From the NCBI RefSeq assembly GCF_013375935.1, contig NZ_CP056117.1, forward strand, positions 4,092,001 through 4,156,000: DNA of 64,000 bases, given 5' to 3'. The stretch is from Enterobacter cloacae. Lineage in GTDB: Bacteria > Pseudomonadota > Gammaproteobacteria > Enterobacterales > Enterobacteriaceae. The position numbers and the translations under genes were made by a program. This document shows positions 4,687-30,529 of the stretch, piece after piece (position 1 is the stretch's first letter; each line of letters opens with the position of its first letter). The notes under the pieces are model-generated. The model saw only the letters and a list, made by a program, of their open reading frames with translations. It was not told the DNA's origin and searched no databases.

Positions 4687-4699
4687 GGTTAAGTCCTTA

Positions 4700-5417
<718 letters not shown>

Positions 5418-5437
<20 letters not shown>

Positions 5438-6077
5438 TGAATTTCGTCTCCAGATAGCGGCTGTAGCGGGACAGCGGATAGCACAGAATAAAGTAGCCCA
5501 GCGCCACCAGCGCAAAGACCTTGAACGGCTGGTAGGTTACGTTGGTCAGCATGGTGCCGGCCTTGGTCAGCTCGATAAAGCCGATAATCGACGCCAGCGC
5601 GGTGCCCTTGATCACCTGCACGGCGAAACCCACGGTTGGCGCGATGGCGATGCGCAGCGCCTGCGGCGCCACCACGCGAAACAGCGTCTGGCCGAAGGTC
5701 AGCCCCAGACAGCGCGAGGCTTCCCACTGCCCCTTCGGCAGGGCGCGAATGCTGCCAAACCAGATATCGAGCAGAAACGCGCTGGTGTAGAACGTGAGGG
5801 CCAGCGAGGCGGCCGTCCACGGCGAGACGTCAATGCCGAACAGCGCCACGCCGAAGAAGGCCAGGAACAGCTGCATCAGCAGCGGCGTGCCCTGAAACAG
5901 CTCAATATAGCCGCGGATGATGCGCTTCACCGTGCTGCCGCCCGACAGGCGCAGCAGCAGGAGCGGCAGCGTCACCGCCGCGCCGCCGAAAAACGCCACC
6001 AGCGACAGCAGCACCGTCCAGCGTCCGGCCAGCAGCAGGTTGCGAATAATGTCCCAGTCGGTAAAGGTGGTCATCAT
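5418..6077 (-). CDS. hpxH: HpxH amino-acid-type ABC transporter permease
   Basis: A 219-residue inner-membrane permease of the HisM/GlnP family with about five membrane segments and the conserved EAA loop LPKGQWEASRCLGLTFGQTLFRVVAPQALRIAIAP. The start at 6077 overlaps the hpxG stop (ATGATGACC, TGA read in the hpxG frame), indicating translational coupling. It pairs with HpxG as a heterodimeric channel. The substrate is inferred from the cluster only. Confidence 0.85.
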
Positions 6078-6739
6078 GCCTGCACCCCCAGCCATTTGCG
6101 TCCCGCTGCCATCATCAGCTGGCGCAGGGTAATCGACAGCGCCAGGTAAATGCCGGTTGTCACCAGATAGACCTCAAAGCTCAAAAACGTTCTGGACTGG
6201 ATCAGGTTGGCGGCAAAGGTCAGCTCTTCATACGAGACCTGCGACACCACCGACGAGCCGAGCATCACGATAATGCACTGGCTCACCAGCGCCGGGTAAA
6301 TGCGCTGCAGCGCGGGCGGCAGCACCACGCGAATAAAGGTCTGCAGGCGGGTCAGCCCCAGCACGCGTCCGGCTTCCCACTGCCCTTTGGGCGTCACCTG
6401 AATGCCTGCGCGAATAATCTCGGTGCTGTACGCGCCAAGGTTTACTACCATTGCCAGCAGCGCCGCCTCCCCCGCCGTCATCTTCAGACCCAGATTCGGC
6501 AGGCCGAAGACGATGAAAAACAGCTGCACCACGAACGGCGTGTTGCGGATGATTTCCACGTACGCGCCCCAGATCCGGCTGTACCACGTCGGGCGTCCGC
6601 TGCGGATCGCCGCGCCAAAAATCCCTGTCGCCAGCCCGCCGATGGTCGCCATCACCGTCAACTGAATGGTGATCCACAGCCCCGCCAGCAGCTCCGGCCA
6701 GTAGGGCCAGAGCGCCGAAAAGTCGAGTTGCTCAGCCAT
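6074..6739 (-). CDS. hpxG: HpxG amino-acid-type ABC transporter permease
   Basis: A 221-residue permease of the same HisMQ family as its neighbour. The EAA loop reads TPKGQWEAGRVLGLTRLQTFIRVVLPPALQRIYPAL, and the RNTPFVVQLFFIVFGLP segment is typical of polar amino acid permeases. It begins four bases after the stop of the binding protein gene hpxF, which supports one transcript. It probably forms the channel together with HpxH for import of a nitrogen-rich purine intermediate. Confidence 0.85.
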   Translation of the reverse strand: MAEQLDFSALWPYWPELLAGLWITIQLTVMATIGGLATGIFGAAIRSGRPTWYSRIWGAYVEIIRNTPFVVQLFFIVFGLPNLGLKMTAGEAALLAMVVNLGAYSTEIIRAGIQVTPKGQWEAGRVLGLTRLQTFIRVVLPPALQRIYPALVSQCIIVMLGSSVVSQVSYEELTFAANLIQSRTFLSFEVYLVTTGIYLALSITLRQLMMAAGRKWLGVQA

Positions 6740-6743
6740 AGCC

Positions 6744-7526
6744 TTATACGCCGAAGCTTGCCGGCAGCGGGGCCTTCAGCCACTGTTCAGACAGGCCGTT
6801 CAGGGTGCCGTTTTTAATGCCCTGCTCAATCAGCGCATCTACTCTGGCTTTCAGCGCCGCTTCGTTCTTCTTCAGGCCAATAAAGCACGGCGAGTCTTTC
6901 AGCATAAAGCTCGGCACCGGGGCTTTAGCCGCGTTCTGGCGCGAAATGGCCGCTACCACGAGGTTGCCTGTCGCCACGTACTGCACCTGGCCGGAGAGGT
7001 AAGCGGAGAGCGTGGTGTTGTTGTCTTCGTAGCGCTTCACGCTGGCGTCCTTCGGCGCGAGGCTGGTGAGCACCATGTCCTCCACCGCCCCGCGCGTCAC
7101 GCCGATGCTTTTTCCGCTCAGCGCGGCGGCATCCTTCAGCTCGGCCCCTTGCGGGCCAAACACCCCGAGGAAGAACGGCGCGTAGGCGCGGCTGAAATCG
7201 ATCACCTTTTCGCGTTCCGGGTTTTTCCCGAGGCTGGAAATGACCAGATCCACCTTGTCGGTTTGCAGATACGGCACGCGGTTGGCGCTGGTTACCGGCA
7301 CGAGCTGAAGCCTGAGCTTCATCTCTCTGGCGAGATAGCGCGCCATGTCGATATCGTAGCCCTGCGGCTGAAGATCGGTCCCGACCGAGCCAAACGGCGG
7401 GAAGTCCTGCGGAACGGCAACGCGAAGCGTGCCGCGCTTCTCGATATCCTGAAGCTGGTCAGCCTTCGCGGGCAGTTGTGCGAAGAGGCATGCGGCCCCG
7501 GCCAGTGCAATTAACAGTTTTTTCAT
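6744..7526 (-). CDS. hpxF: HpxF periplasmic substrate-binding protein of the HpxFGHI transporter
   Basis: A 260-residue solute-binding protein of the amino acid (SBP_bac_3) family. Residues 1-22 (MKKLLIALAGAACLFAQLPAKA) are a Sec signal peptide with an AKA-type cleavage site. The mature part has GTLRVAVPQDFPPFGSVGTDLQPQGYDIDMARYLA and the second-lobe motif KVDLVISSLGKNPEREKVIDFSRAYAP, both typical of the family. The start at 7526 is used because only it gives the signal peptide at the N terminus; the frame upstream to 7583 overlaps the sigma-54 promoter. It is the first gene of the operon hpxFGHIJK. Confidence 0.85.
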   Translation of the reverse strand: MKKLLIALAGAACLFAQLPAKADQLQDIEKRGTLRVAVPQDFPPFGSVGTDLQPQGYDIDMARYLAREMKLRLQLVPVTSANRVPYLQTDKVDLVISSLGKNPEREKVIDFSRAYAPFFLGVFGPQGAELKDAAALSGKSIGVTRGAVEDMVLTSLAPKDASVKRYEDNNTTLSAYLSGQVQYVATGNLVVAAISRQNAAKAPVPSFMLKDSPCFIGLKKNEAALKARVDALIEQGIKNGTLNGLSEQWLKAPLPASFGV

Positions 7527-17991: not shown

Positions 17992-18479
17992 TCGCCAATC
18001 GCTCCTTCCAGTCGTAGTAAGGTAATTTCCCGCAGCTGTTCGAGCGCAATCTCCAGTTCCTGCGCCTCGCTGTTTTCAAGCCGCGCGCGCAGGGCTTCTA
18101 CTATTTCCCCGCTGGTTCGCCCTTTCGCACGGATCAGAAAGACGCGTCCGAAGCGGGCTTCGTAGCGGGCATTTCCGTCCCGCAGGGCGTCGGCATGATG
18201 CTGCTCAACCGCCCCCTGCTCCTGGCGCGACAGCGCGGCCTCCGGCCCCGTTCCCGATGGGGTTTCGCCGATGCGCGGGTGCGCGCTCAGGGCCTGAGCC
18301 AGGGCCGCTTCATCCCACTTTTGCGCCAGCGCCTGCGCCGCGCTGAACAACGCTTGCTGGCTGGAATAGGGCCGTCCGCGAACCAGCGCGTCGGCCCAGG
18401 CAGGCAACGCCACGCACGCAGAGATCCGCGCCAGCGCCTCTTCGTAAGGCAAATGATTAAAGTCCTGTAGTGCGATCAT
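17988..18479 (-). CDS. hpxQ: HpxQ OHCU decarboxylase
   Basis: A 163-residue OHCU decarboxylase of the UraD family (MIALQDFNHLPYEEALARISACVALPAWADALVRGRPY). The catalytic His is expected in LSAHPRIGE, and Glu and Arg in SRQEQGAVEQHHADALRDGNARYEARFGRVFLIRAKGR. It gives S-allantoin. The start at 18479 is preceded by GGAG eight bases upstream, better supported than the frame-extending ATG at 18512. First gene of hpxQT. Confidence 0.9.
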   Translation of the reverse strand: MIALQDFNHLPYEEALARISACVALPAWADALVRGRPYSSQQALFSAAQALAQKWDEAALAQALSAHPRIGETPSGTGPEAALSRQEQGAVEQHHADALRDGNARYEARFGRVFLIRAKGRTSGEIVEALRARLENSEAQELEIALEQLREITLLRLEGAIGE

Positions 18480-18511
18480 GTTGGCTCCGTTGAAATCCTC
18501 GTCTACAGCCA

Positions 18512-18528
18512 TTGCACAAATTACGCCA
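18512..18528 (-). promoter_or_regulatory. Sigma-54 promoter candidate of hpxQT
   Basis: On the minus strand TGGCGT-AATTT-GTGCA keeps GG-N10-GC spacing, with the -24 core TGGC and a -12 element one base from TTGCA. It is about 35 bp before the hpxQ start. It would share the NtrC-like site at 18614-18630 with hpxO. Confidence 0.5.
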
Positions 18529-18613
18529 CTCTTGCCGACGGCGTGAAACAGTCGATTCCGCCATCCTCAGCAGGAAACTATTGATTCATCCTAAGGCAAA
18601 CCTCGCCCCAAAA

Positions 18614-18630
18614 CGCACCTTAGCAGTGCA
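18614..18630. promoter_or_regulatory. NtrC-like site between hpxQ and hpxO
   Basis: CGCACC-TTAGC-AGTGCA differs from the NtrC consensus TGCACC-N5-GGTGCA at two bases and keeps its exact 6-5-6 layout. It lies 40 bp upstream of the hpxO -24 element and about 85 bp from the hpxQ one, in the 240-bp divergent gap, so one site could serve both promoters. Confidence 0.65.
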
Positions 18631-18670
18631 AACCCGCGCCCCACAACGCGCTTTTCGCCACGCTGCAGCC

Positions 18671-18686
18671 TGGTACGCAAATTGCT
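18671..18686 (+). promoter_or_regulatory. Sigma-54 promoter of hpxO-hpxD-hpxE
   Basis: TGGTAC-GCAAA-TTGCT has five of six -24 bases and a full -12 element with GG-N10-GC spacing, 33 bp before the hpxO start codon. Together with the nearby NtrC-like site it indicates nitrogen control of urate formation and oxidation. Confidence 0.8.
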
Positions 18687-18719
18687 CACTCCTCTTACAC
18701 CCTGCGAAAGGAGAGAAGC

Positions 18720-19874
18720 ATGAAAGCGATTGTGATTGGGGCGGGCATCGGTGGGTTAAGCGCGGCCGTCGCGTTAAAAAACGCCGGAATAGACTGTACC
18801 GTCTTTGAAGCCGTAAAGGAGATCCGCCCCGTGGGAGCGGCCATCTCCATCTGGCCCAACGGCGTGAAATGTATGCAGCACCTGGGTATGGGCGACATCA
18901 TCGAGACGTACGGCGGGCCGATGCGCTTTATGGCCTATAAAGATTATCGTCGCGGCGACACGCTGACCCGGTTTAGCCTTGCACCGCTCGTCGAGCGCAC
19001 CGGCGGGCGCCCCTGCCCCGTTTCGCGCGCGGAGCTTCAGCGCGAAATGCTGGACTTCTGGGGACGCGACAGGGTGCAGTTCGGCAGGCGCGTCGAAGGC
19101 GTATGTGAAGATAAGGCTGGCGTGAGCGTCACCTTTACCGATGGCACCACGGCAACAGGCGATTTTCTGATTGCCGCCGACGGCAGCCACTCTGCGGTTC
19201 GTCCGTACGTGCTGGGATACGCCCCGGAGCGCCGCTACGCCGGGTACGTGAACTGGAACGGGCTGGTGAAGATTGATGAAGCCATTGCCCCGGCGCACCA
19301 GTGGACCACGTATGTCGGGGAAGGCAAACGCGTTTCGCTGATGCCCGTTTCCGGCGGGCGTTTCTACTTCTTTTTTGACGTGCCGCTTCCGGCAGGGCTG
19401 GCGGAAGATCGCACGTCCCTGCGCGGCGATCTCGCTCGCTACTTCCGGGGATGGGCACCGCCGGTGCAGAGGCTTATCGCCGCGCTCGACCCCGAAACCA
19501 CCAACCGTATTGAGATCCACGACATTGAGCCGTTCGACAGCCTGGTGCGCGGCAGGGTTGCCCTTTTGGGTGATGCCGGACACAGCACCACGCCGGATAT
19601 CGGCCAGGGGGGATGCGCCGCGATGGAGGATGCCGTGGTGCTGGGGGAGTGCCTGCGTGAAAACCGCCGCATCGAGCTTGCCCTGCGGCAGTACGAAGCG
19701 CTGCGCTGCGACAGGGTTCGCGATCTGGTGCTGAAGGCCCGCAAACGCTGCGACGTCACCCACGGGAAAGATATGGCGCTGACCGAGGCCTGGTATCGGG
19801 AGCTCAAAGAGGAGACCGGGGAGCGCATCATTAACGGTCTGTGCGACACCATTCAGGGCGGGCCATTAGGCTGA
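18720..19874 (+). CDS. hpxO: HpxO FAD-dependent urate hydroxylase
   Basis: A 384-residue flavoprotein monooxygenase. The FAD dinucleotide motif is IGAGIGGLSAAVALKNAG (from residue 6), the DG motif is FLIAADGSHSAVR (about 149-161), and the second FAD motif is GRVALLGDAGHSTTPDIGQGG (about 278-300). Arg204 and Tyr216, the positions reported as important for urate binding in Klebsiella HpxO, are present. It converts urate to 5-hydroxyisourate with NADH and O2 and replaces a cofactor-free uricase. The start follows AGGAGAG. In Klebsiella hpxO is separated from hpxDE by the regulator hpxR; here the three genes run in one direction with no hpxR. Confidence 0.92.
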   Translation: MKAIVIGAGIGGLSAAVALKNAGIDCTVFEAVKEIRPVGAAISIWPNGVKCMQHLGMGDIIETYGGPMRFMAYKDYRRGDTLTRFSLAPLVERTGGRPCPVSRAELQREMLDFWGRDRVQFGRRVEGVCEDKAGVSVTFTDGTTATGDFLIAADGSHSAVRPYVLGYAPERRYAGYVNWNGLVKIDEAIAPAHQWTTYVGEGKRVSLMPVSGGRFYFFFDVPLPAGLAEDRTSLRGDLARYFRGWAPPVQRLIAALDPETTNRIEIHDIEPFDSLVRGRVALLGDAGHSTTPDIGQGGCAAMEDAVVLGECLRENRRIELALRQYEALRCDRVRDLVLKARKRCDVTHGKDMALTEAWYRELKEETGERIINGLCDTIQGGPLG

Positions 19875-19891
19875 GCGTAAGAGGAGAAACC

Positions 19892-20926
19892 ATGAGAAAA
19901 GAACCTGCACCGCCCGCACGCTGCACCTTTGAGCCCGGAGACTGGCTGCGCCTCGCGAAATGCTGGCATCCGGTTGCCCGCGCGTGCGACATCGGCCCGG
20001 CACCGGTAAAAGCCACGCTGCTGGATGAGCAGCTGGTGATTTATCGTATTAACGATCGCGTCGTGGTGGCCCGGGACGTATGTCCACATCGCGGCGTACC
20101 GCTGACGCTGGGCTTTCACGATGAGTACGGCATTATCTGTCCCTACCATGGCTTACGCTTTGGAGAAGAGGGTCGCTGCAACCGCATCCCTTCCAGCCCC
20201 AACCAGCCGGTTCCGGCGAAGCTGAACCTCCTTAACTATGCGGTGGAGGAGCGCTTCGGCCTGATCTGGACCTGCCTGGACTTTGATCCGGACAATCCTG
20301 TTCCGCTTCCCACCCTGCCGCACTGGGATGATGAGGGCTTTCAGCAGATCAACTGCCCGGCGTTTGAGGTGAATGGTTTCGCAGGCCGTCAGGTCGAGGG
20401 CTTCCTGGACGTCGCCCACTTCGCGTGGATCCACACCGACACCTTTGCCGATCCCGCTAATCAGCAGGTCCCTGCCTATCAGCCGCAGGAGACGTCCTTC
20501 GGCTTTGTTGCCGATTACTGGAGTTCCGTCAGCAATTATCCCGCCGGTTCACCTGTCCAGGCGCCGGAGGGTTTCCAGTGGCTGCGCCATTTTGAACTGC
20601 ACCTGCCGTTTACCGCCACGCTGACCATCCATTTTCCCGGCGATGCAAGGCTGGCGATCATGAACGCCGCCTCGCCGGTATCATCGCGCGTGACGCGGAT
20701 GTTTGCGCCGATTGCGCGCAACTTTGACCTGCATATTCCTGTAGAAGAGGTGCATGCCTTTAACCTGCGCATTTTCGAGGAGGATCGTCTGATGGTTGAA
20801 ACCCAGCGTCCGGAAAGCCTGCCGCTGGATCTGACCCTTGAAGCCCATATTCCGGCGGATAAAAGCTCAATTGCCTACCGTCGTGGGCTAAAAAAGATGG
20901 GCTTTGGCGAGTTTTTCCTGGCATGA
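19892..20926 (+). CDS. hpxD: HpxD Rieske oxygenase component for purine oxidation
   Basis: A 344-residue Rieske non-heme iron oxygenase. The [2Fe-2S] ligands are Cys64-x-His66 and Cys83-x2-His86 in CPHRGVPL...CPYHG. The mononuclear iron site is expected in EGFLDVAHFAWIHTDTF. With the reductase HpxE it forms the two-component system that in Klebsiella takes the place of xanthine dehydrogenase in making urate from oxidised purines. The start at 19892 follows AGGAGAAAC, 17 bp after hpxO. Its stop overlaps the hpxE ATG. It is intact although its reductase partner is frameshifted. Confidence 0.88.
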   Translation: MRKEPAPPARCTFEPGDWLRLAKCWHPVARACDIGPAPVKATLLDEQLVIYRINDRVVVARDVCPHRGVPLTLGFHDEYGIICPYHGLRFGEEGRCNRIPSSPNQPVPAKLNLLNYAVEERFGLIWTCLDFDPDNPVPLPTLPHWDDEGFQQINCPAFEVNGFAGRQVEGFLDVAHFAWIHTDTFADPANQQVPAYQPQETSFGFVADYWSSVSNYPAGSPVQAPEGFQWLRHFELHLPFTATLTIHFPGDARLAIMNAASPVSSRVTRMFAPIARNFDLHIPVEEVHAFNLRIFEEDRLMVETQRPESLPLDLTLEAHIPADKSSIAYRRGLKKMGFGEFFLA

Positions 20927-21872
20927 CGGAGGCGGATATGTTGAACGTTATCGTTGACGGGCTGTGGCGCGAGGGGAATAAAAGCCTCGCCGTCAGGCTG
21001 GTGGCTGAAAACGGCGAAGCGCTGCCAGCGTGGCAGCCCGGCGCGCACGTTGATGTGCATCTGCCCTGCGGCGTGGTTCGCCAGTACTCCCTGACCGGAG
21101 CATGTGAAAACGCGAGCTATCTTATCTGCGTGGGCCGGGAAACCGCCTCGCGCGGCGGGTCGCGCTATGTACACGAGACGCTGCGCCCGGGGCAGACGTT
21201 AGCGATCTCCGCCCCGCGCAATCTGTTTCCGCTTACTCAGGCAGAGCGGGTTGTGCTGCTGGCAGCGGGGATAGGCATTACGCCGCTGTATGCGATGGCC
21301 CTGCATCTTAACGCTGCCGGAACGCCGTTTACGCTGCACTATTACGTCAGGAACCGGGAAAGCGCGGCGTTTGCGCGCGAACTTTCGCGGTTGGGTGAGT
21401 GCACTATTCATACCGTCAGCCCTCGCTCCGCGCTGGCCGGTCATCTGCCGCTGCCCGCGCCGGGGTTACACGCCTGGGTTGCGGACCGTCAGGCTTTATG
21501 GCGAAAGTGCGCGAGGTCGCGCGGTCGAAAGGCTGGCCTGACGAGGCGGTGCACAGCGAGGCGTTTCAGCCCCCGGCACCGCTTATAAGCGGTGAGGCGG
21601 GCGAGATCTTCACGGTCAAACTGGCCTCCACCGGCGAGCGCTGGCCGGTGCCCGCGGACAAGACCATCGCCCAGGTGCTGCAGGCGAACGGCGTAGACGT
21701 ACCGCTGTCATGCGAAATGGGGATCTGCGGAGCGTGCCTGACGCCGGTGATCGACGGGGTGGTAGACCACCGGGATACCGTGCAGTCAGAGGCGGAAAAA
21801 AGCGCGCCTGGCCAGCAGGTGGCTCTCTGCTGTTCGCGAAGCCATTCAGGGGAGCTGGTGATTGCGCTGTAA
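20923..21872 (+). pseudogene. hpxE: HpxE reductase component, frameshifted
   Basis: A phthalate-dioxygenase-reductase-type protein of about 316 residues when repaired. The N-terminal flavin domain includes RQYSLTGACENASYLICVGRE and the NAD domain includes LLAAGIGITPLYAM. Near 21477-21481 the frame slips: HAWV continues as ADRQALW, while the +1 frame gives CGPSGFMAKVREVARSKGW, the expected NAD-binding end. Adding one base (GGTTTGCGG for GGTTGCGG) restores the frame. The C-terminal plant-type [2Fe-2S] domain with CEMGICGACLTP and a later LCCSRS is intact in the second frame to 21872. A true deletion would remove the ferredoxin domain and cut electron supply to HpxD. A start at 20938 (after GGAGG) is also possible. 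Confidence 0.88.
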
Positions 21873-21875
21873 AAC

Positions 21876-21911
21876 GAAAAAACCCTGCGATATTGCTATC
21901 GCAGGGTTTTC
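21876..21911 (-). terminator. Terminator of tRNA-Ser copy 1
   Basis: Ten-base arms CCCTGCGATA and TATCGCAGGG surround GCAA; on the minus strand a TTTTTT run follows. The plus strand also ends in TTTT, so it may stop hpxODE transcripts as well. The same hairpin follows copy 2. Confidence 0.85.
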
Positions 21912-21916
21912 GAATT

Positions 21917-22004
21917 TGGCGGAAGCGTAGAGATTCGAACTCTAGAACCCTTTCGGGTCGCCGGTTTTCAAGACCGGTGCCTTCAACCGCTCGGCCACGC
22001 TTCC
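21917..22004 (-). tRNA. serT: tRNA-Ser(UGA), copy 1
   Basis: The minus strand reads GGAAGCGTGGCCGAGCGGTT at the 5' end and a full 88-nt serine tRNA with the long variable arm (GACCCGAAAGGGTTC), T loop TTCGAATC and encoded CCA. The anticodon loop is CTTGAAA, anticodon UGA, so it decodes UCA and related serine codons. A promoter with -35 TTTACA and -10 TATAGT lies upstream (22017-22045). An identical gene body is found 3843 bp to the right. Confidence 0.96.
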
Positions 22005-22016
22005 AAAGTGAGGCGC

Positions 22017-22045
22017 ACTATAAACATCTCTGAGCATGATGTAAA
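22017..22045 (-). promoter_or_regulatory. Sigma-70 promoter of tRNA-Ser copy 1
   Basis: On the minus strand -35 TTTACA (22045-22040) and -10 TATAGT (22022-22017) are 17 bases apart, followed by GCGCC at the start region, typical of a stable-RNA promoter. Confidence 0.8.
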
Positions 22046-22122
22046 GCGTGAAATGGCATAAAGTTGCCCCTCCTTCGTCATTTTCTTGCCCCTCGCATAC
22101 TTTTTCATCGCACTCTGGCTAA

Positions 22123-22146
22123 AATGTAAACATTTATTTTTACATT
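22123..22146. promoter_or_regulatory. Inverted repeat upstream of the LuxR-type gene
   Basis: AATGTAAA and TTTACATT are perfect 8-bp arms eight bases apart in the AT-rich gap 22046-22257. It could be an operator, possibly for the product of the gene it precedes. I found nothing else identifiable in this gap. Confidence 0.45.
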
Positions 22147-22257
22147 AATTACGCTTATCAGATTCACTATTTGTCATTTAGACTCTTTTTCATACGACAT
22201 ACATTAACGGTACATCGTACGACAAGAGGTTTCCCTTTATATTATGCATTCTCGATT

Positions 22258-22785
22258 ATGAGTATTTTATTTATCAGCGATAACTATTATCTGTGTAGCG
22301 GGGTTTTAAGCGCTCAGACAACCGTCCATTTCATTCGCGACGACGAGGATATTCACGACCTTATCGGAGTCGATCCTGAACTGAATTTTATCATTGCGAT
22401 AGAACAAGATAACCTACGTAACGGGGTCATCAGGCAGGTCAAAAAAATTAAGAATAGTTATATCGTCCTGATGCATGAGATAGAAATGAACAGGGCCGTG
22501 AAAATAGATAATATTATCTATTCGTCAATGCATTTTAATATTCGCCCTTTTCAGCAGCTGATGCGTTTTTACAGAGCGCTCAGAATAAACGCATTTACGC
22601 GGCGAGAATATGACGTGCTGAAGCTTTTCCATCTGGAAAATCATGAAATTGCCAAAAGGCTTAAACTCTCCCAAAAAACAACCAGCACCTACCGCGTGAA
22701 GATCCTGGAAAAATTAAACATGCGCTCAAGAAACATTCTGGCGATGTCCCGCATGAAATCGGCGATTGTCGATCAGAAACTGTGA
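22258..22785 (+). CDS. Orphan LuxR-type transcriptional regulator
   Basis: A 175-residue protein with a C-terminal LuxR/FixJ helix-turn-helix at about residues 112-165 (FTRREYDVLKLFHLENHEIAKRLKLSQKTTSTYRVKILEKLNMRSRN). The N-terminal part (MSILFISDNYYLCSGVL...) looks like a degenerate receiver or BglJ/FimZ-like module without a clear phospho-acceptor Asp, so phosphorylation is doubtful. The gene is visibly AT-rich against GC-rich neighbours, which suggests horizontal transfer and H-NS silencing. The frame can start at 22171, but 22258 gives a folded N terminus. It lies upstream of the metallophore ABC operon in the same direction; a regulatory link is a guess. Confidence 0.75.
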   Translation: MSILFISDNYYLCSGVLSAQTTVHFIRDDEDIHDLIGVDPELNFIIAIEQDNLRNGVIRQVKKIKNSYIVLMHEIEMNRAVKIDNIIYSSMHFNIRPFQQLMRFYRALRINAFTRREYDVLKLFHLENHEIAKRLKLSQKTTSTYRVKILEKLNMRSRNILAMSRMKSAIVDQKL

Positions 22786-22876
22786 ACCTTTCTCTGCCTC
22801 TGGATGCCACAGGCTCACGCACGTCAGCCTGAGTAAAGTTGCGCAGGGTGTTGCGCTCAATCACAACGCATGTATT

Positions 22877-22893
22877 ATGTTATAACATAACAT
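22877..22893. promoter_or_regulatory. Zur-like zinc operator before the FecBCD-type operon
   Basis: ATGTTAT-AAC-ATAACAT has perfect 7-bp inverted arms with a 3-base centre, the layout of the gamma-proteobacterial Zur box (ATGTTAT-ANT-ATAACAT), and is followed by TTT as in the consensus. A possible promoter (TTGCGC at 22851, 16 bases, TATTAT at 22873) would start transcription inside the box, so bound Zur-Zn would repress it. The box ends 16 bp before the start codon. It does not resemble the Fur consensus. Confidence 0.75.
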
Positions 22894-22909
22894 TTTGGGA
22901 TTGGGTTTT

Positions 22910-23914
22910 ATGTTATCAAAAACAGGGTTATTTCTTTCTGCATTACTCACCGTGACGCCTGCCGCTTTTGCCGCAACCGCCTACCCGCTGACGATTGAAA
23001 ATTGCGGGGTAAAGCAGACCTTTACGCAGGCGCCGCAGCGCGTCGTTACCGTGGGCCAGCATGAAACGGAACTGCTGCTCGCGCTGGGGCTGGAAAAATC
23101 CGTCGCCGCAACGTCGGTCTGGTTTGGTCAGCTTCCGGACTCGCTGGCCGATGCCGGAAAAAAAATCCCCCGGCTTGCCGACAATTCGCCCTCCTTCGAA
23201 GCCGTCGTGGGGCAAAAACCGGAGCTCGTTCTCGCCCAGTACCACTGGCACATTGGCCCGCAGGGCGAGGTGGGAACACGCGAGCAGTTTGCGTCGCTGG
23301 GAATTAAGACGTGGATCTCCCCCGCCGACTGCACGGACAAAACGGTGACGGAAACCACAAACGCCGACGGAGCGCGGAGCGCGCCGTTTTCACTGGCGGA
23401 AATAACGCGCGAAGTCACGGAACTGGCCGCCATCTTTGACGTTTCCGCGCGGGGCGAGCAGCTCAACCGCGCGCTGACGGCGCGTATTGAGAAAGCGCAG
23501 GCGCGCGTTTCGGCCAGGCCGCTCAAGGTCGTATTCTGGTTTTCAAGCAGCCGCCTGAACGGCGATCCCTGGGTGGCGGGGAGCTACGGCGCGCCCGGCT
23601 GGATAAGCCGCACGCTGGGGTTAAAGAACGTGATTGACTCCCGCGACGAATGGCCCGCCGTCACCTGGGAACATATTGCCCAAATGCAGCCTGACGTTAT
23701 CGTCATCGCGCAGATGTCGCGCAGGCTCTACCCCGCCGATGACGTTGCGGTAAAGGAGGCCTTTTTACGACGCGATCCGGTAACCCGGAACATTCCCGCA
23801 GTCAGGAATAACCAGATTATCGTGGTGCCCGCCATGTCGTTAAACCCGTCGCTGCGTAACGTCGATGCGGTTGAGCTTATCAGCGACCGGCTTGCTTCAT
23901 TCCGGGGCGAATAA
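22910..23914 (+). CDS. Periplasmic metallophore-binding protein (FecB/BtuF-type), Zur-controlled
   Basis: A 334-residue cluster A-II-type solute-binding protein. The signal peptide is at residues 1-22 (MLSKTGLFLSALLTVTPAAFAA). The mature protein shows APQRVVTVGQHETELLLALGLEKSVAAT, the strand-turn typical of siderophore and cobalamin binders, and TWEHIAQMQPDVIVIAQ in the second lobe. His-rich QYHWHIGPQG and two cysteines (NCGVK, PADCTDK) could contact metal or form a disulfide. It should deliver a chelated metal or tetrapyrrole to the following permease. The Zur-like box points to a zinc complex instead of an iron siderophore; the ligand is unknown. It overlaps the permease gene by TAATG. Confidence 0.8.
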   Translation: MLSKTGLFLSALLTVTPAAFAATAYPLTIENCGVKQTFTQAPQRVVTVGQHETELLLALGLEKSVAATSVWFGQLPDSLADAGKKIPRLADNSPSFEAVVGQKPELVLAQYHWHIGPQGEVGTREQFASLGIKTWISPADCTDKTVTETTNADGARSAPFSLAEITREVTELAAIFDVSARGEQLNRALTARIEKAQARVSARPLKVVFWFSSSRLNGDPWVAGSYGAPGWISRTLGLKNVIDSRDEWPAVTWEHIAQMQPDVIVIAQMSRRLYPADDVAVKEAFLRRDPVTRNIPAVRNNQIIVVPAMSLNPSLRNVDAVELISDRLASFRGE

Positions 23915-24945
23915 TGCGCCATTTCTCCTCTTCCCGCCGCCAGCAGGTGGCGCTTGCGGCAGGCGCCGTGGCGCTGCCGCTGATGCTGGTCTTTGCCGCG
24001 AGTATCGGCGATATGCCGGTATCGTATGCCGTTACCGGAAAAGCGATTCTGAACGGGCTGGGGCTGACGTCATATCACCTGCCCCAGCCGGAGGAAGGCA
24101 TCGTCTGGCAGTACCGCATGAGCCGGGCGCTGATGGCCGCCTGCAGCGGCGGCGGTCTGGCGCTGTGCGGGCTGGTGCTCCAGTCGATACTGCGTAACCC
24201 CCTGGCTGAACCCTATCTGCTGGGCATTTCCGCAGGCGCCTCGCTGGGGGCCGTCTGCGTGATGCTTCTCGGCATCGGCGGGAGCGTCATTGGCGTGAGC
24301 AGCGGCGCGTTTGTCGGCGCCTGTGCCGCTTTTGCGCTCATCATGCTGATTACCAACGGCATGAGCGAAAGCCCGTCGCGCATTTTGCTGGCAGGCATCG
24401 CGGGCACGCAGCTCTTCAACGCGATGACCGCGTACGTCGTCAGCACCTCCGCCAACGCCGAGCAGTCGCGCAGCGTTATGTTCTGGTTAATGGGCAGCCT
24501 GAGCGGCGTCCGCTGGCCTGACGCGCTGCTGGCGCTGGCCGTGACGGTGACGGGCCTGCTGGTGGTCTGCCTCTTTGCGCGGGCGCTGGACACCTTCACC
24601 TTCGGAGATGAGGTCTCCACCACCCTCGGGATCCCGGTGGCCGCCGTGCGTATTGCCCTGTTGCTGACCTGCGCGTTCGTCACTGCAACCCTGGTAAGCG
24701 CCATAGGCGCAGTGGGGTTTGTGGGGCTGGTCATTCCCCACGTGACGCGCATGCTAAGCGGCCCGGGCCATCGTCGCGCTATTCCGCTGACGTTTCTTAT
24801 CGGCGCGCACTTTATGATCCTGGCCGATATCGTGTCACGCACGCTGATCGTGCACCAGGTTCTGCCCATCGGGGTGGTGACTGCGCTGGTGGGCGCGCCT
24901 GTCTTTGTGGCGCTGCTTTATCAAAACCGGAAGGAGCATTTATGA
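23914..24945 (+). CDS. FecCD/BtuC-family ABC permease
   Basis: A 343-residue FecCD-family permease with about ten membrane segments. Signatures are RMSRALMAACSGGGLALCGLVLQSILRNPLAEPYLLGISAGASLGAV (the RNPLAEP motif), LLAGIAGTQLFNAMTAYV, and the coupling-loop region AIGAVGFVGLVIPHVTRMLSGPGHRRAIPLTFLIGA. It would form the channel homodimer for the binding protein encoded upstream. Start and stop overlap both neighbours (TAATG upstream, ATGA downstream), so the three genes form one operon. Confidence 0.88.
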   Translation: MRHFSSSRRQQVALAAGAVALPLMLVFAASIGDMPVSYAVTGKAILNGLGLTSYHLPQPEEGIVWQYRMSRALMAACSGGGLALCGLVLQSILRNPLAEPYLLGISAGASLGAVCVMLLGIGGSVIGVSSGAFVGACAAFALIMLITNGMSESPSRILLAGIAGTQLFNAMTAYVVSTSANAEQSRSVMFWLMGSLSGVRWPDALLALAVTVTGLLVVCLFARALDTFTFGDEVSTTLGIPVAAVRIALLLTCAFVTATLVSAIGAVGFVGLVIPHVTRMLSGPGHRRAIPLTFLIGAHFMILADIVSRTLIVHQVLPIGVVTALVGAPVFVALLYQNRKEHL

Positions 24946-25710
24946 ATATTTCCGTCTCCGGGTTAAGCGTAACCCGACAAGCACTGACGGTGCTTGAGAA
25001 TATCAACCTCGACCTGCCGTCCGGACAGATTGTCGGCCTGCTAGGGCCAAACGGCTCGGGCAAATCAACGCTGCTACGCTGTCTTGCCGGGCTGTTTCCG
25101 CACCTCGGTGAACGCGTTGCGCTTAACGGCACGTCGCTTAGCGTAATGCCGTTAAAAACGCGCGCGCGGCACCTGGCATTCGTCCCGCAACATGCCGACG
25201 TCGAGGGAGAACTGACCGTAGAGGATATCGTACGGCTGGGGCGAACGCCTTACCGGAAGGCGTTTCAAAGAAGCACGCGCGATGATGATGCGGCGGTTGA
25301 AGAGGCGATAAGCCTGATGCAGCTAGGCGGATTACGCCAGCGGCGCTGGCAGCATTTGTCCGGCGGGGAACGTCAGCGAAGCCAGATTGCGCGTGCGCTG
25401 GCGCAGCGGCCCCGGGTATTGCTGCTCGATGAGCCGACAAACCACCTGGACATTCAGCACCAGCTGGAGCTGATGCGGCTTATTTCGCACCTGCCGCTCA
25501 CGGTGGTGGTGGCCCTGCACGATCTTAATCTGGCGGCCAACTACTGCCAGCGGCTGATCCTTCTGAAGGCCGGGCGCGTATCGGCCACCGGCGCGCCCCC
25601 CGGAGGTGCTCACCGCGGAGAACATCGAGAAAACCTGGTGCGTCAAGGCGAACGTCTACAGGGCAGACGCCGGGATCACGATCGGCTACAGCATGGGAGG
25701 GATGGCGTAG
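24942..25710 (+). pseudogene. FecE/BtuD-type ABC ATPase, frameshifted near its 3' end
   Basis: Walker A GPNGSGKST, Q-loop VPQHADVEGELT, signature LSGGERQRSQIARAL, Walker B VLLLDEP and switch His VVVALHDLN are all intact. At a C6 tract (25596-25601, residue about 219) the frame shifts. Removing one C gives PPEVLTAENIEKTWCVKANV and ends at 25710 with 255 residues, the usual FecE length. As written, the frame runs on across the second tRNA-Ser to 25850. The whole catalytic core precedes the shift, so partial activity or slippage is possible, as is a homopolymer sequencing error. Confidence 0.82.
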
Positions 25711-25718
25711 AACAGAAG

Positions 25719-25754
25719 CAAAAAACCCTGCGATATTGCTATCGCAGGGTTTTC
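25719..25754 (-). terminator. Terminator of tRNA-Ser copy 2
   Basis: Same hairpin as at copy 1 (CCCTGCGATA, GCAA, TATCGCAGGG) with a T run on the minus strand. It would also act on the ABC operon in the plus direction. Confidence 0.85.
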
Positions 25755-25759
25755 GAATT

Positions 25760-25847
25760 TGGCGGAAGCGTAGAGATTCGAACTCTAGAACCCTTTCGGG
25801 TCGCCGGTTTTCAAGACCGGTGCCTTCAACCGCTCGGCCACGCTTCC
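25760..25847 (-). tRNA. serT: tRNA-Ser(UGA), copy 2
   Basis: The 88-nt gene is identical to copy 1, with anticodon UGA, long variable arm and encoded CCA. Its promoter has the same -35 TTTACA (25888-25883) and -10 TATAGT (25865-25860) with 17-base spacing, but the spacer differs from copy 1, so the duplication is not recent or the promoters have different origins. In E. coli there is one serT near yccA. Confidence 0.96.
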
Positions 25848-25859
25848 TAAGTGAGGCGA

Positions 25860-25888
25860 ACTATAAACACCTCACCGCGCGCTGTAAA
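25860..25888 (-). promoter_or_regulatory. Sigma-70 promoter of tRNA-Ser copy 2
   Basis: -35 TTTACA and -10 TATAGT on the minus strand with a 17-base, GC-rich spacer. The hexamers are identical to copy 1 while the spacer is mostly different, showing selection on both promoters. Confidence 0.8.
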
Positions 25889-25991
25889 GAGCACGCGCAT
25901 TCGTTCGCTTTAAAAATAGCCAAATTGCGTTTAATCGGTTGAATAGACGACATATTGGCGATTTTGCCAGCATAAAATCCACCACCGAGGT

Positions 25992-27620
25992 TTAGTGCTT
26001 TTTGATGTACATATCTTTCGTGTAGTAATACCCGAGCTTGTCCGGGGTGAATCCCCCTACCCACGGCTTCACAAGGTGCGTGCGAACGTAGTGATAGACG
26101 GGGATCGCCGGCACGTCACGCCCCAGCAGATCCTCTGCCTGCTGATAAAACTTTCCGCGCTCTTGCGGCGTTTTTGATTTCGCCGCATTCGCCAGCGCCT
26201 GGTCGTACTCAGGATTGCTGTACTGCGTGGTGTTTTGGCTATCCCCGGTACGGAAGTTATTCAGGAAAGTGGAGGCGTCATCGTAATCGGCAATCCAGGC
26301 GTAGCGCACCGCGTCAAAATTATGGGTGTGCATGGTATCAAGCATGGTTTTCCACTCCTGATTTTGCAGCTTCGCCTCCACGCCGAGGTTCTTTTTCCAC
26401 ATCGAGCTGGCGGCAATGGCGATACGCTGGTGTGTTTCAGAGGTGTTATACAGCAGATTAAAACTCAGTGGATGGCTGGCGCTATATCCGGCCTCTTCGA
26501 GCAGTTTTTTCGCCTCGGCAATACGTTTGTCCCGCGGCCAGCTGGCGTAGTCCGGGTTCTGTAACTTAACGCCACCAATGTCCGGCTGACTGATAAGCCA
26601 CGCCGGGCGCTGCCCCTGCCCCATCACTTTATCTGCAATGATGTCTTTATCGAGCGCCATATTGAGCGCCTTTCGCACGCGCGCATCGTTGAACGGCGCG
26701 CGGCTGGTGTTGAATTCATAATAGTAGGTGGCAAGCTGCGGGGAGACGTCCAGCTGGCTGCCCAGCGTTTTCTTAAGCCGGGCGAACTGGTTTACTGGCA
26801 CCGTGTAGACAATATCGATTTCTCCCGCTTTATAGCGGTTCACATCAGCCGCCTCGGAGGAAACAGGCAGATATGTCACCCTGTTGATCACGGTATGAGC
26901 ATTATCCCAGTAGCGCGGGTTACGCTCCGCCACAATGCGTTCGTTAACCACCCACGTCGACAGCTTATAGGCACCGCTGCTGACGATGTGTTCCGGTTTG
27001 GTCCATTTATCGTCGAAACGACCTACCAGGACCTTATCTATCGGCACCAGAGACGGGTGTGCCAGCATCGCCAGGAAGGCGGCATTCGGCTGCGTGAGCG
27101 TGACTTCCAGCGTGCTGTCATTGATGGCTTTTACCCCCAGCAACGCGGGCGCTTTTTTGCCTTCGGCAATATCGGCGCCGTTAACGATACGCATGCTGCC
27201 GGGATAGCTGGCATACGGTGAGGCGGTTTTCGGGTCCACCAGCCGCTGCCAGCTCCAGACGATATCTTCCGCGGTGATGGCGCTTCCATCGCTCCAGGTA
27301 ATGCCCGGGCGAAGATGGAAGGTCCAGACGGTGTTATCTTTATTTTCCCATTTCTCCGCCAGGCGCGGCTGGATTTCCCCTGCCGGGGAGACGCTGACCA
27401 GCCCGTCGAATAAATCGCTGATAATATTGAATTCGACATCGCTTTCGACTTTATGCGGGTCGAGGGAAGCGGGTTCACTTCCGTTATTCCTGACCAGCTC
27501 CTGCTTCTCTGCCAGCTGGGTTCCTGCCGGTACGCTAGCGGCCCAGGCGGCCGTGCTGGCGCTCAGGATCCCCGCGGTTATCAGTGAGAGTGCAGCGTGT
27601 GTGCGCGTTTGTGGTTTCAT
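25992..27620 (-). CDS. OppA/MppA-like periplasmic oligopeptide-binding protein
   Basis: A 542-residue SBP_bac_5 family protein. The signal peptide is MKPQTRTHAALSLITAGILSASTAAWA. The mature part has EPASLDPHKVESDVEFNIISDLFDGLV, WTFHLRPGITWSDGSAITAEDIVWSWQRLVDP (family signature) and YYYEFNTSRAPFNDARVRKALNMALDKDII, all close to OppA and MppA. It binds peptides in the periplasm. No permease or ATPase genes are adjacent, so it probably works with an Opp-type transporter elsewhere. The start at 27620 follows AAGGCGAAGGAA and is the only one giving the signal peptide at the N terminus. Confidence 0.85.
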   Translation of the reverse strand: MKPQTRTHAALSLITAGILSASTAAWAASVPAGTQLAEKQELVRNNGSEPASLDPHKVESDVEFNIISDLFDGLVSVSPAGEIQPRLAEKWENKDNTVWTFHLRPGITWSDGSAITAEDIVWSWQRLVDPKTASPYASYPGSMRIVNGADIAEGKKAPALLGVKAINDSTLEVTLTQPNAAFLAMLAHPSLVPIDKVLVGRFDDKWTKPEHIVSSGAYKLSTWVVNERIVAERNPRYWDNAHTVINRVTYLPVSSEAADVNRYKAGEIDIVYTVPVNQFARLKKTLGSQLDVSPQLATYYYEFNTSRAPFNDARVRKALNMALDKDIIADKVMGQGQRPAWLISQPDIGGVKLQNPDYASWPRDKRIAEAKKLLEEAGYSASHPLSFNLLYNTSETHQRIAIAASSMWKKNLGVEAKLQNQEWKTMLDTMHTHNFDAVRYAWIADYDDASTFLNNFRTGDSQNTTQYSNPEYDQALANAAKSKTPQERGKFYQQAEDLLGRDVPAIPVYHYVRTHLVKPWVGGFTPDKLGYYYTKDMYIKKH

Positions 27621-27890
27621 TTCCTTCGCCTTATTGTCTGTTTTTATGACGATCCGGAAATAACTCTTAGCGGCCTTAGTGAAATAACGCAATATTTTTC
27701 AGTAACCTATAAGAGGTTGATCTGAATACGCCAGGCAAACCGTGCTTCCTTCTGAAGAAATGGGCTTTATCAGAAGAAAAAACCGGCACAAACCCTAAGG
27801 GGCTGAGTAAAGATGGGTAAAACCACTTTGAGACTGCCGCGCCGTTTCCTATTCTTTCCGTTAATTACATCTGTCATAAGAGAGTGACTC

Positions 27891-28550
27891 ATGGATCGTA
27901 TAATTACTTCCTCACGCGACCGCACATCGCTACTCAGCACCCACAAGGTGCTGCGCAATACCTATTTTATGCTCAGCCTGACGCTGGCGTTTTCGGCCAT
28001 TACCGCCACGGCCAGCACCGTGCTGATGCTGCCGTCTCCGGGCCTGATCCTGACGCTGGTGGGTATGTATGGTCTGATGTTCCTGACCTACAAAACCGCC
28101 GACAAACCGGTGGGTATTCTGTCCGCGTTCGCCTTTACGGGCTTCCTGGGGTACATCCTGGGGCCAATCCTGAACGCGTATCTGTCTGCCGGCATGGGTG
28201 ATGTGATCGGTATGGCGCTGGGCGGTACCGCGCTGGTGTTCTTCTGCTGCTCGGCCTACGTGCTGACCACCCGTAAGGACATGTCCTTCCTCGGCGGCAT
28301 GCTGATGGCGGGTATCGTGATTGTGCTGGTGGGTATGCTGGCAAACATCTTCCTGCAATTGCCTGCTCTGCACCTGGCAATCAGCGCGGTGTTTATCCTG
28401 ATTTCATCTGGCGCCATCCTGTATGAAACCAGCAACATCATTCACGGCGGTGAGACGAACTACATCCGCGCGACCGTGAGCCTGTACGTGTCGCTGTACA
28501 ACATTTTCGTCAGCCTGCTGAGCATCCTGGGCTTCGCCAGCCGCGATTAA
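27891..28550 (+). CDS. yccA: YccA, Bax-inhibitor-1-family membrane protein, FtsH modulator
   Basis: A 219-residue inner-membrane protein with seven membrane segments. The N terminus [42 protein letters not shown] is the YccA sequence; this cytoplasmic tail is the part FtsH degrades. The final acidic DGA/aspartate region typical of BI-1 proteins is near the end (FASRD). YccA is a substrate and inhibitor of the FtsH protease and protects SecY. A terminator (28565-28600) follows. Confidence 0.93.
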
Positions 28551-28564
28551 CTCACCGTGCTGTG

Positions 28565-28600
28565 AAAAAAGCCCCGCTTATGCGGGGCTTTGTTTTTTTG
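28565..28600 (+). terminator. Terminator after yccA
   Basis: GCCCCGC-TTAT-GCGGGGC stem followed by TTTGTTTTTTT. Confidence 0.9.
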
Positions 28601-28638
28601 GTAAACTGCTGCGGTATTTGACTAACGCGTGAATGATT

Positions 28639-28968
28639 ATGTTGAGTTTTGAAGGCAAAAAGATCGAAACCGATAACGATGGTTATCTGAAAGAGAGCAG
28701 CCAGTGGAGCGAAGCGCTGGCGGAGAAAATTGCGGAAAACGAAGGGATTACTCTCTCCCCGGAACACTGGGAAGTGGTGCGCTTTGTGCGCGAGTTTTAC
28801 CTTGAATTCAACACCTCTCCGGCCATCCGCATGCTGGTCAAAGCCATGGCGAACAAATTTGGCGAGGAGAAAGGCAACAGCCGCTATCTGTATCGCCTGT
28901 TCCCGAAAGGCCCGGCAAAACAGGCGACCAAAATTGCCGGCCTGCCAAAACCGGTAAAATGCATTTAA
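28639..28968 (+). CDS. tusE: TusE sulfurtransferase for tRNA 2-thiouridine
   Basis: A 109-residue DsrC-family protein very close to E. coli TusE ([32 protein letters not shown]). The penultimate Cys in the C-terminal PKPVKCI accepts sulfur from TusBCD and hands it to MnmA for U34 thiolation. The start at 28639 ([10 protein letters not shown]) matches the E. coli start; an ATG at 28633 is two codons earlier. It overlaps the end of the convergent acyP by 4 bp. Confidence 0.93.
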
Positions 28969-29246
28969 TAGCGAATACTGAAGTCAGCGTATTCCCGGCC
29001 GGGTTGATGCGGTTCCGTTAAGACCTTATCAACCCGCGCGCTTCGCGGCCCGCCCGCTTTCAGCCACGCCACAAGCTTCTCTACCCTATCCGCCTCACCG
29101 CAGGCGACAACTTCCACGCTGCCGTCATCCATGTTACGGGCATACCCCGTAAGCCCGAGCTGAAGGGCTTCACGCTGGGTGCTGTAGCGGAACCCAACGC
29201 CCTGCACGAGGCCGTGGACCCAGGCTATGGTGCAAACATTTGACAT
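28965..29246 (-). CDS. acyP: Acylphosphatase
   Basis: A 93-residue acylphosphatase. The phosphate-binding motif is [13 protein letters not shown] with the catalytic Arg, and the catalytic Asn is in [13 protein letters not shown]. It hydrolyses the carboxyl-phosphate bond of acyl phosphates. The start at 29246 (MSNVCTIAW) matches E. coli YccX and follows GGAGAAGG. It is divergent from rlmI. Confidence 0.93.
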
Positions 29247-29338
29247 CATCCTTCTCCTTATCCGACTGGCGCGTTGCATTTCCTCACTGAAGTCGGGAAA
29301 ATGGCGGCCATTTTCTTGAATCGACAGAATAGCAAATT

Positions 29339-30529
29339 ATGAGCGTACGTTTAGTGTTAGCCAAAGGGCGCGAGAAGTCATTACTGCGCCGTCATCCCTG
29401 GGTCTTTTCCGGCGCGGTTGCCCGAATGGAAGGTAAAGCCAGCCTCGGTGAAACCATCGATATCGTTGACCATCAGGGGAAGTGGTTAGCGCGCGGCGCA
29501 TACTCGCCTGCATCCCAGATCCGCGCCCGCGTCTGGACGTTCGATAAAGACGAAACCATCGACATCGACTTCTTTGTCCGCCGCCTGCAGCAGGCGCAGC
29601 AGTGGCGTGAGTGGCTGGCAAAACGTGACGGGCTGGACAGCTACCGTCTGATCGCCGGTGAGTCCGACGGCCTGCCGGGGGTCACCATTGACCGCTTCGG
29701 CAACTTCCTGGTGCTGCAACTGTTAAGCGCCGGGGCGGAGTATCAGCGTGCCGCGCTGATTAGCGCGCTGCAAACGCTGTACCCGGACTGTGCTATTTAC
29801 GACCGCAGCGACGTGGCGGTGCGTAAAAAAGAGGGCATGGAGCTGACGCAAGGCCCGGTAACCGGTGAACTACCGCCTGCCCTGCTGCCTATCGAAGAAC
29901 ACGGCATGAAGCTGCTGGTGGATATCCAGGGCGGTCATAAGACCGGCTATTACCTCGATCAGCGCGATAGCCGTCTGGCAACCCGCCAGTATGTTGCCGA
30001 TAAGCGCGTGCTGAACTGCTTCTCCTATACCGGCGGCTTCGCGGTCTCTGCACTGATGGGCGGCTGTGCCCAGGTTGTCAGCGTCGACACCTCGCAGGAA
30101 GCGCTGGATGTGGCGAAACAGAACGTCGAGCTGAACGGGCTGGACCTGAGCAAAGCGGAATTTGTTCGCGACGACGTATTCAAACTGCTGCGTAAATACC
30201 GCGACCAGGGCGAAAAATTTGACGTCATCGTGATGGACCCGCCGAAGTTCGTGGAGAATAAAAGTCAGCTGATGGGCGCCTGCCGTGGCTATAAAGACAT
30301 CAACATGCTGGCGATCCAGCTGCTGAACCCGGGCGGCGTGCTGCTGACGTTCTCCTGCTCTGGCCTGATGACCACCGATTTATTCCAAAAAATCATCGCC
30401 GATGCCGCTATAGATGCTGGTCGTGATGTACAATTTATAGAGCAGTTCCGTCAGGCCGCCGATCACCCGGTGATCGCTACCTACCCGGAAGGGCTGTATC
30501 TGAAAGGGTTTGCCTGTCGCGTCATGTAA
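29339..30529 (+). CDS. rlmI: RlmI 23S rRNA m5C1962 methyltransferase
   Basis: A 396-residue SAM-dependent methyltransferase. The N-terminal PUA domain begins [25 protein letters not shown]. The Rossmann domain has [27 protein letters not shown], the acidic motif [11 protein letters not shown] and the catalytic cysteine in [10 protein letters not shown]. It methylates C1962 of 23S rRNA. Length and order match E. coli. Confidence 0.93.

Follow-up and report, generated by a model that had tools for sequence, protein, structure and literature searches.

The 64,000 nucleotides of Enterobacter cloacae DNA analysed here (contig NZ_CP056117.1, positions 4,092,001 to 4,156,000; hereafter the window) contain a three-gene operon for an ATP-binding cassette (ABC) importer of the iron-siderophore or cobalamin type, headed by a palindrome that resembles an operator of the zinc-responsive repressor Zur. 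Which metal does this importer bring into the cell, and under which control? Its homologies and its upstream site indicate that the operon probably encodes a CbtJKL-like importer for a divalent transition metal, repressed by zinc-bound Zur. The sites and genes concerned are the following, with positions counted in the window.

22874-22879, + strand: possible -10 element TATTAT, overlapping the left half of the Zur box (seen by eye, without a listing in the promoter scan)
22877..22893, + strand: Zur-box operator, a 7-3-7 palindrome (motif searches of window and genome, matrix scan)
22910..23914, + strand: periplasmic binding protein, CbtJ-like (Peripla_BP_2), 334 aa, with a signal peptide recognised by eye and the group residues H51, E52, P307 and M309
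23914..24945, + strand: FecCD-type permease, 343 aa, 52% identical to its pSymB homologue
24942..25710, + strand: ABC ATPase, frame broken near 25598 with the last ~30 residues out of frame; the open reading frame as read extends to 25850

A preliminary description of this DNA had reported a FecBCD-type operon of three genes behind a palindrome, and both are real. The binding protein matches PF01497 (120.7 bits) and the permease PF01032 (272.9 bits), both passing the Pfam gathering scores, and the ATPase matches PF00005. The palindrome ATGTTATAACATAACAT is found without mismatch as an exact 17-mer at 22877-22893 on the + strand, and the ATG of the binding-protein gene lies 16 bases downstream. 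When up to three mismatches were allowed, it gave three matches in the window, all at this same spot (both strands, one shifted by 5), for 0.03 expected; a chance origin of the palindrome is excluded. In the whole genome of 4,896,591 bases, the 13-base core GTTATANYRTAAC occurs at four places and its reversed control at none, while the 17-mer Zur consensus ATGTTATANYRTAACAT has two exact places, the window operon and a site before zinT. Another core site, before a gene for an L31-type ribosomal protein, is identical to the window core in all 13 letters, the znuA/znuC site has one mismatch to the 17-mer, and the remaining core site lies between cysS- and ppiB-like genes, an interval which to our knowledge is not a known Zur target (all these genes were named by eye). 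In enterobacteria, Zur typically controls zinT, znu and the L31 paralogue. At three mismatches the 17-mer is unspecific genome-wide, with 23+24 = 47 matches and 13+18 = 31 for the reversed control. A further Zur-like site with two mismatches (G000:C1:1947448-1947464, L018) has a glycosidase gene on one side and a regulator gene on the other and is probably due to chance.

We then considered whether the box accompanies the operon in its relatives (loci are labelled L, genomes G). For this purpose, a position matrix whose sole sources were the sites of zinT, znu and L31, the window site being excluded, was scanned from 700 bases upstream to 60 bases downstream of each binding-protein start. A Zur site of 20.1-24.7 bits was found at 20 of the 21 loci of the window's binding-protein group, and in the 21st member, L072, a site of 25.7 bits precedes a COG0523 gene with a cobW domain which leads into the same operon. 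The second copies L084b and L124b stand outside these counts, though they enter the residue counts given below, and L010 is the same contig as L070. As background, the 1,107,446 bases outside the scan windows of the loci hold nine sites of at least 15 bits, that is 0.006 per 760-base window. Among the other CbtJ-like proteins, two of 23 have a Zur box (L148 and L162, both 20.4 bits). The Leclercia adecarboxylata locus L012 also has the box; its binding-protein gene does not read in one frame and was left out of the trees. No strong Fur-like site was found: the best match reached 12/19 in the window, and none exceeded 14 in the window's binding-protein group. Control of the operon by Zur and not by Fur, as the preliminary description had proposed from the 7-3-7 layout, is well supported, since the box is conserved, a matrix built without the window site agrees and the Fur matches are low.

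These results bear on the idea that the operon imports an iron siderophore and that its palindrome is fortuitous or repurposed. The genes have the Pfam make-up of such systems (FecCD/Peripla_BP_2), EitA is the top NCBIfam profile of the window binding protein and true EitA proteins are nested in the wider tree. However, the EitA cut-off was missed (249.7 of 640 bits), as was that of EitC (240.6 of 485), and the low Fur-like matches and the conserved Zur box point the other way. EitABC(D) shares fold and gene types with the window operon, but a true EitA (700.3 of 640 bits) is encoded elsewhere in the same genome (L087), in a distant clade without a Zur box, and by matrix scan the box precedes none of the eight Eit-like paralogues. 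The iron-siderophore reading is disfavoured by the missed EitA cut-off, the want of a strong Fur-like site and the Zur box, and we consider it most improbable.

The surroundings of several related operons also speak of zinc. On the Acinetobacter plasmid of L164, the interval that separates the operon from a divergent cobW-domain gene contains two Zur boxes. In the enterobacterial genome of L073, a second box of 22.0 bits heads a gene run about 6 kb upstream of the operon (2518-6652), which encodes FolE2 (286.6 of 215 bits), a protein with hexapeptide repeats that resembles gamma-carbonic anhydrase, a COG0523 protein and a dihydroorotase-like amidohydrolase. The Zur regulon of Pseudomonas aeruginosa, as outlined in the passages of PMC4542158 and PMC10393844 used here, includes the zinc-independent paralogues FolE2, a carbonic anhydrase and PyrC2. 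COG0523 genes are found near the operons of L072, L150, L164 and L124, the last of which (genome G1376) has two CbtJ-like binding-protein genes in one cluster with a ZnuA-family gene and the COG0523 gene. The surroundings of L073, L124 and the like are zinc neighbourhoods.

Homologues of all three window proteins are encoded in the same order on pSymB of Sinorhizobium meliloti (45000-85000 of NC_003078.1, L163), with identities of 43% over 315 residues for the binding protein, 52% over 326 for the permease and 44% over 216 for the ATPase. Directly upstream of them, Rfam detects a cobalamin riboswitch (119.6 bits). CbtJKL, which is located on pSymB and whose binding protein is similar to BtuF, is reported to be a Co(II) importer under an adenosylcobalamin riboswitch (PMC7689651, with which PMC12239276 agrees; Cheng et al. 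2011 is cited through these two papers, both used in part). The sequence record has no gene names at this place, and we identified the locus as cbtJKL by its location, homology and riboswitch. From these comparisons, CbtJKL is the closest experimentally studied relative among those compared. Both systems share the order binding protein, single permease, ATPase and have a Zur-like box upstream: on pSymB, a match of 18.7 bits, the best in 40 kb (the next has 5.3), stands just upstream of the riboswitch (about 21120 in L163; about 66120 of pSymB), which predicts that S. meliloti cbtJKL would also be controlled by Zur. They differ in that CbtJKL is under the riboswitch whereas the window's group has none, and in that CbtJ has S/S/D/Q where the group has H51/E52/P307/M309.

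This difference in riboswitches was also seen more widely. The Rfam searches covered the loci other than L007, L008, L081-L087, L118-L120, L125, L148, L154-L160, L162 and L164-L167. No cobalamin riboswitch was detected in the 17 loci of the window's group that were searched (18000-30000 of the window and 16 others), whereas 21 of 26 homologous loci outside the group have one directly upstream of the binding-protein gene on the same strand. Twenty of these 21 score above the gathering score, L108 and L145 reaching only 33 bits, and that of Halotalea (L013) has 28.8 of 31.5 bits. Of the 21, 8 come from the genus g549 and 3 from g635; the counts given here ignore shared descent. The 8 riboswitch loci of g549 all have a CbiC/CobH match about 3 kb from the binding-protein gene. 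Zur sites accompany 12 of the 21 riboswitch loci at a threshold of at least 15 bits and 16 at a threshold of at least 11 bits. The box was seen between riboswitch and gene in L110, L113 and L114 and upstream of the riboswitch in L115 and L163. The simplest account of such double control would be an importer that takes both cobalt and zinc and is induced by shortage of B12 or of zinc. The B12-synthesis marker CbiC/CobH is present in 3 of 13 genomes of the window's group versus 20 of 20 chosen genomes outside (18 picked from riboswitch loci and two sister loci); in the window's own genome, neither CbiC/CobH nor CbiD was found.

The binding protein itself distinguishes the group. In an alignment of 77 binding proteins, His51, Glu52, Pro307 and Met309 are present in 21 of 21 members of the window's group and in none of the 46 other family members. 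In the predicted model, the strand 45-47 with the helix 50-58 and the strand 303-307 with the helix 308-311 hold the four residues, one set per lobe. In this fold, the positions where a strand ends and a helix starts open to the cleft. The four residues would therefore lie in the binding cleft, a placement which rests on the predicted order of strands and helices and on general knowledge of the fold; the AlphaFold model has a mean predicted local distance difference test score of 74.3, with residues 70-110 below 50. Of two features mentioned in the preliminary description, the His-rich YHWH is present at residues 111-114 but is not conserved, His112 being found in 11 and His114 in 45 of the 67 family members, and the two cysteines (C32 and C141) exist but do not vary in any of the 77 proteins of the alignment, whether or not a Zur box precedes their genes. 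Structure searches returned haem, siderophore and uncharacterised binders, with 4mlz as the best, which indicates a shared fold only.

In the tree of binding proteins without outgroup, the 21 rows of the window's group form one side of a branch with support 100/100; when two PA2913-like rows were added as a distant outgroup, the base of the group was left without resolution. Its neighbour is a set of 13 rows (genus g549 and Halotalea), joined to it with 100/98 support for both together; riboswitches and Zur-like boxes are frequent in this set. On these alignments, CbtJ and the window's group belong as homologues to one larger family, of which a named siderophore binder is also a member; they did not group together to the exclusion of the other named families, the Eit-like rows lying on CbtJ's side and the PA2913-like rows outside.

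In the mechanism that we propose for this CbtJKL-like importer, zinc-bound Zur would sit on the palindrome over the promoter and repress the operon, and upon zinc shortage it would release the operator. In the periplasm the binding protein would capture the metal, either free or bound to a small chelator, and permease and ATPase would move it into the cytoplasm, the permease presumably as a homodimer because there is one permease gene. We infer the repression, the cargo and the use of the cargo, next to what is read directly: the conserved Zur box, the homology to CbtJKL, the group residues and the absence of a riboswitch from the group.

Several observations weigh against this interpretation. 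The ATPase of the window copy is broken in frame near its end. Five of the 26 outside loci have no upstream riboswitch (none in L109, L111, L150 and L152, and one on the divergent strand in L116), 9 of the 21 riboswitch loci score below 15 bits for Zur, and three genomes of the window's group do carry the B12 marker. The 8 Eit-like rows branch on CbtJ's side and not on the window's, and the EitA profile gives CbtJ 336.8 bits and the window binding protein 249.7 (the EitA of the same genome, a named siderophore protein, has 700.3 for a cut-off of 640). A cobalt cargo is not simply transferable from CbtJ, because the EitA rows nest on its side. In addition, gain or loss of the group residues and of the riboswitch is deduced with the root of the group left without resolution, and may have been a single event.

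What, then, is the cargo? We consider zinc, at slightly better than an even chance, somewhat more likely as the main cargo than cobalt, which we place well below it: a dual-metal importer explains the double control of the relatives, and of the two switches only the Zur box is present in this group, along with His51/Glu52. Sequence alone does not separate a zinc cargo from cobalt used in its place. It is possible, though rather doubtful, that the operon imports Co(II), free or chelated, for zinc sparing, cobalt replacing zinc in enzymes as proposed for PA2911-PA2914 of P. aeruginosa. CbtJKL, first regarded as a B12 importer, is reported to carry Co(II) (PMC7689651), and import of pyochelin-cobalt by the Zur-regulated PA2911-2914, proposed as a cobalt supply under Zur, is supported by data in the part of PMC11481552 that we used. 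For S. fredii znuA mutants, excerpts of PMC7029138 describe growth on plates restored partly by 2 uM and largely by 20 uM CoCl2, but also that 20 uM cobalt slowed the wild type and that added cobalt did not mend nodulation. Cobalt sparing also sits poorly with the lack of a riboswitch, with the four residues of the window's group, which are absent from the other family rows among the 67, and with the 10 of 13 genomes of the group without the B12 marker.

The preliminary description had favoured a chelated zinc compound, a zincophore or zinc-tetrapyrrole brought in with a TonB receptor. Among solved folds whose ligand is known, the best matches bind siderophores and haem, and for PA2911-2914 a cargo of chelated zinc (or of cobalamin) was suggested by the authors of PMC4542158. 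However, a search of this genome for a receptor with a similar box gave nothing: none of the 13 TonB receptor genes found in it has a listed Zur-like site at a distance of 2.5 kb or less. No receptor was present in the CbtJ-like operons read, one receptor-like reading frame lying 6.4 kb from the binding-protein gene in L158, and no metallophore synthesis genes were seen by eye beside the operons. With a cobalt importer as the closest studied homologue compared and a cobalamin riboswitch at most outside relatives searched, this cargo finds no support and we regard it as unlikely, though zinc in some form is possible. In place of chelated zinc alone, we would read the cargo as zinc or cobalt, a metal of the CbtJKL type.

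PA2911-PA2914 resembles the window operon as a Zur-regulated importer of siderophore type for which a cobalt or zinc chelate has been proposed in the sources cited, but its operon includes a TonB receptor and that of the window does not. The binding protein of the PA2911-like locus L160, used here as a stand-in for the PAO1 protein (itself outside the comparison), is 29-32% identical to the window's and lies on a separate branch with full support; orthology of the window protein with PA2913 is unsupported. In L160 (about 4250-6871, f186 genome), a 21.0-bit Zur box lies upstream of the TonB receptor gene.

Import of a corrinoid was also weighed: B12 brought in under zinc shortage would allow reliance on MetH and a lower output of MetE, a zinc enzyme. 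The relatives have adjoining cobalamin riboswitches and cob genes, and the window binding protein has a distant similarity to BtuF, whose profile gave 37.6 of 234 bits, below cut-off. Nevertheless, CbtJKL passed from presumed B12 importer to reported Co(II) carrier (PMC7689651, as excerpted), and a distinct Btu-like set, identified by eye, is located near the operon of L115, which makes this alternative very unlikely.

ZnuABC and ZniCBA, zinc ABC importers of Enterobacteriaceae of which ZnuABC also has a Zur box, differ from the window system in that their binding proteins belong to another family, cluster A-I. In Paracoccus denitrificans, several importers predicted to be of iron or cobalamin type rise 1.5- to 4-fold on zinc depletion, without a Zur motif (PMC5387054, seen in part); they are likened to the window's by description only, and the motif absent there is present here. 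Among open-licence papers, we recognised no report of a Zur-controlled CbtJKL-like or comparable enterobacterial system.

A CbtJKL-like importer that is probably repressed by Zur suggests that bacteria recruited a cobalt-type pump into the zinc-shortage response. We propose tentatively that a cobalt importer of the B12 regulon could have become a dedicated zinc importer, in a branch which would have dropped the riboswitch, mostly together with B12 synthesis, put His, Glu, Pro and Met in the cleft and spread as a mobile three-gene unit, including on plasmids of Pantoea and Acinetobacter. With such double control, S. meliloti cbtJKL would itself belong to the Zur regulon. Such a system would link the zinc and the cobalt/B12 economies, usually treated apart, and predicts a role for CbtJKL-like transporters both in zinc starvation and in B12 synthesis, with a few residues deciding between cobalt and zinc. 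It would give Enterobacter a further metal route beside ZnuABC, relevant where zinc is withheld.

The operon of the preliminary description was given to end at 25710. Its limits hold for the binding protein and the permease, but 25710 is the stop of another frame: the frame of the ATPase is lost after about residue 219 (near 25598), at a point through which 18 of 18 examined relatives (query included) read in one frame. A reductase/ferredoxin-like gene at 20923-21872, beside hpx-like genes, also seems by eye to be split over two frames. There may be frame errors in the assembly, or real decay, in more than one case.

CbtJ-like operons followed by a gene for a pseudoazurin-like copper protein were observed, mostly by eye, in L081-L084, L086, L155, L157, L158, L165 and L167, and several of them continue into cytochrome bc1 (petABC-like) genes; the matrix scan revealed no Zur box before the binding-protein genes of this type.

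Finally, the operon lies in an insert bounded by tRNA genes:

21917..22004, - strand: tRNA-Ser(UGA) copy, left boundary of the insert
22171..22785, + strand: LuxR-type regulator in the same insert, with a homologue in L005 and L007 only among the listed operons, hence not a core part
25760..25847, - strand: tRNA-Ser(UGA) copy, right boundary of the insert

Two tRNA-Ser(UGA) copies flank the operon of the window, as they do in four Enterobacter loci (L005-L008), and no near match to the segment was found in E. coli genomes. Elsewhere the operon occupies other sites, including plasmids of Pantoea, Erwinia and Acinetobacter, and the Zur box accompanies it in both plasmid loci of the group that were read (L164 and L166); the operon appears to move as a unit. 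In six genomes of the same genus, of which 13 kb at this site were read (L174-L179), there is one tRNA-Ser(UGA) copy in G306 and G706, the operon of G306 being some 5.5 kb from it. In G144, G239, G366 and G746 there are two copies, separated by 0.1 to 8 kb that do not contain the operon. The tRNA-Ser(UGA) site in this genus is a variable insertion site, at which doubled copies enclose different cargo.

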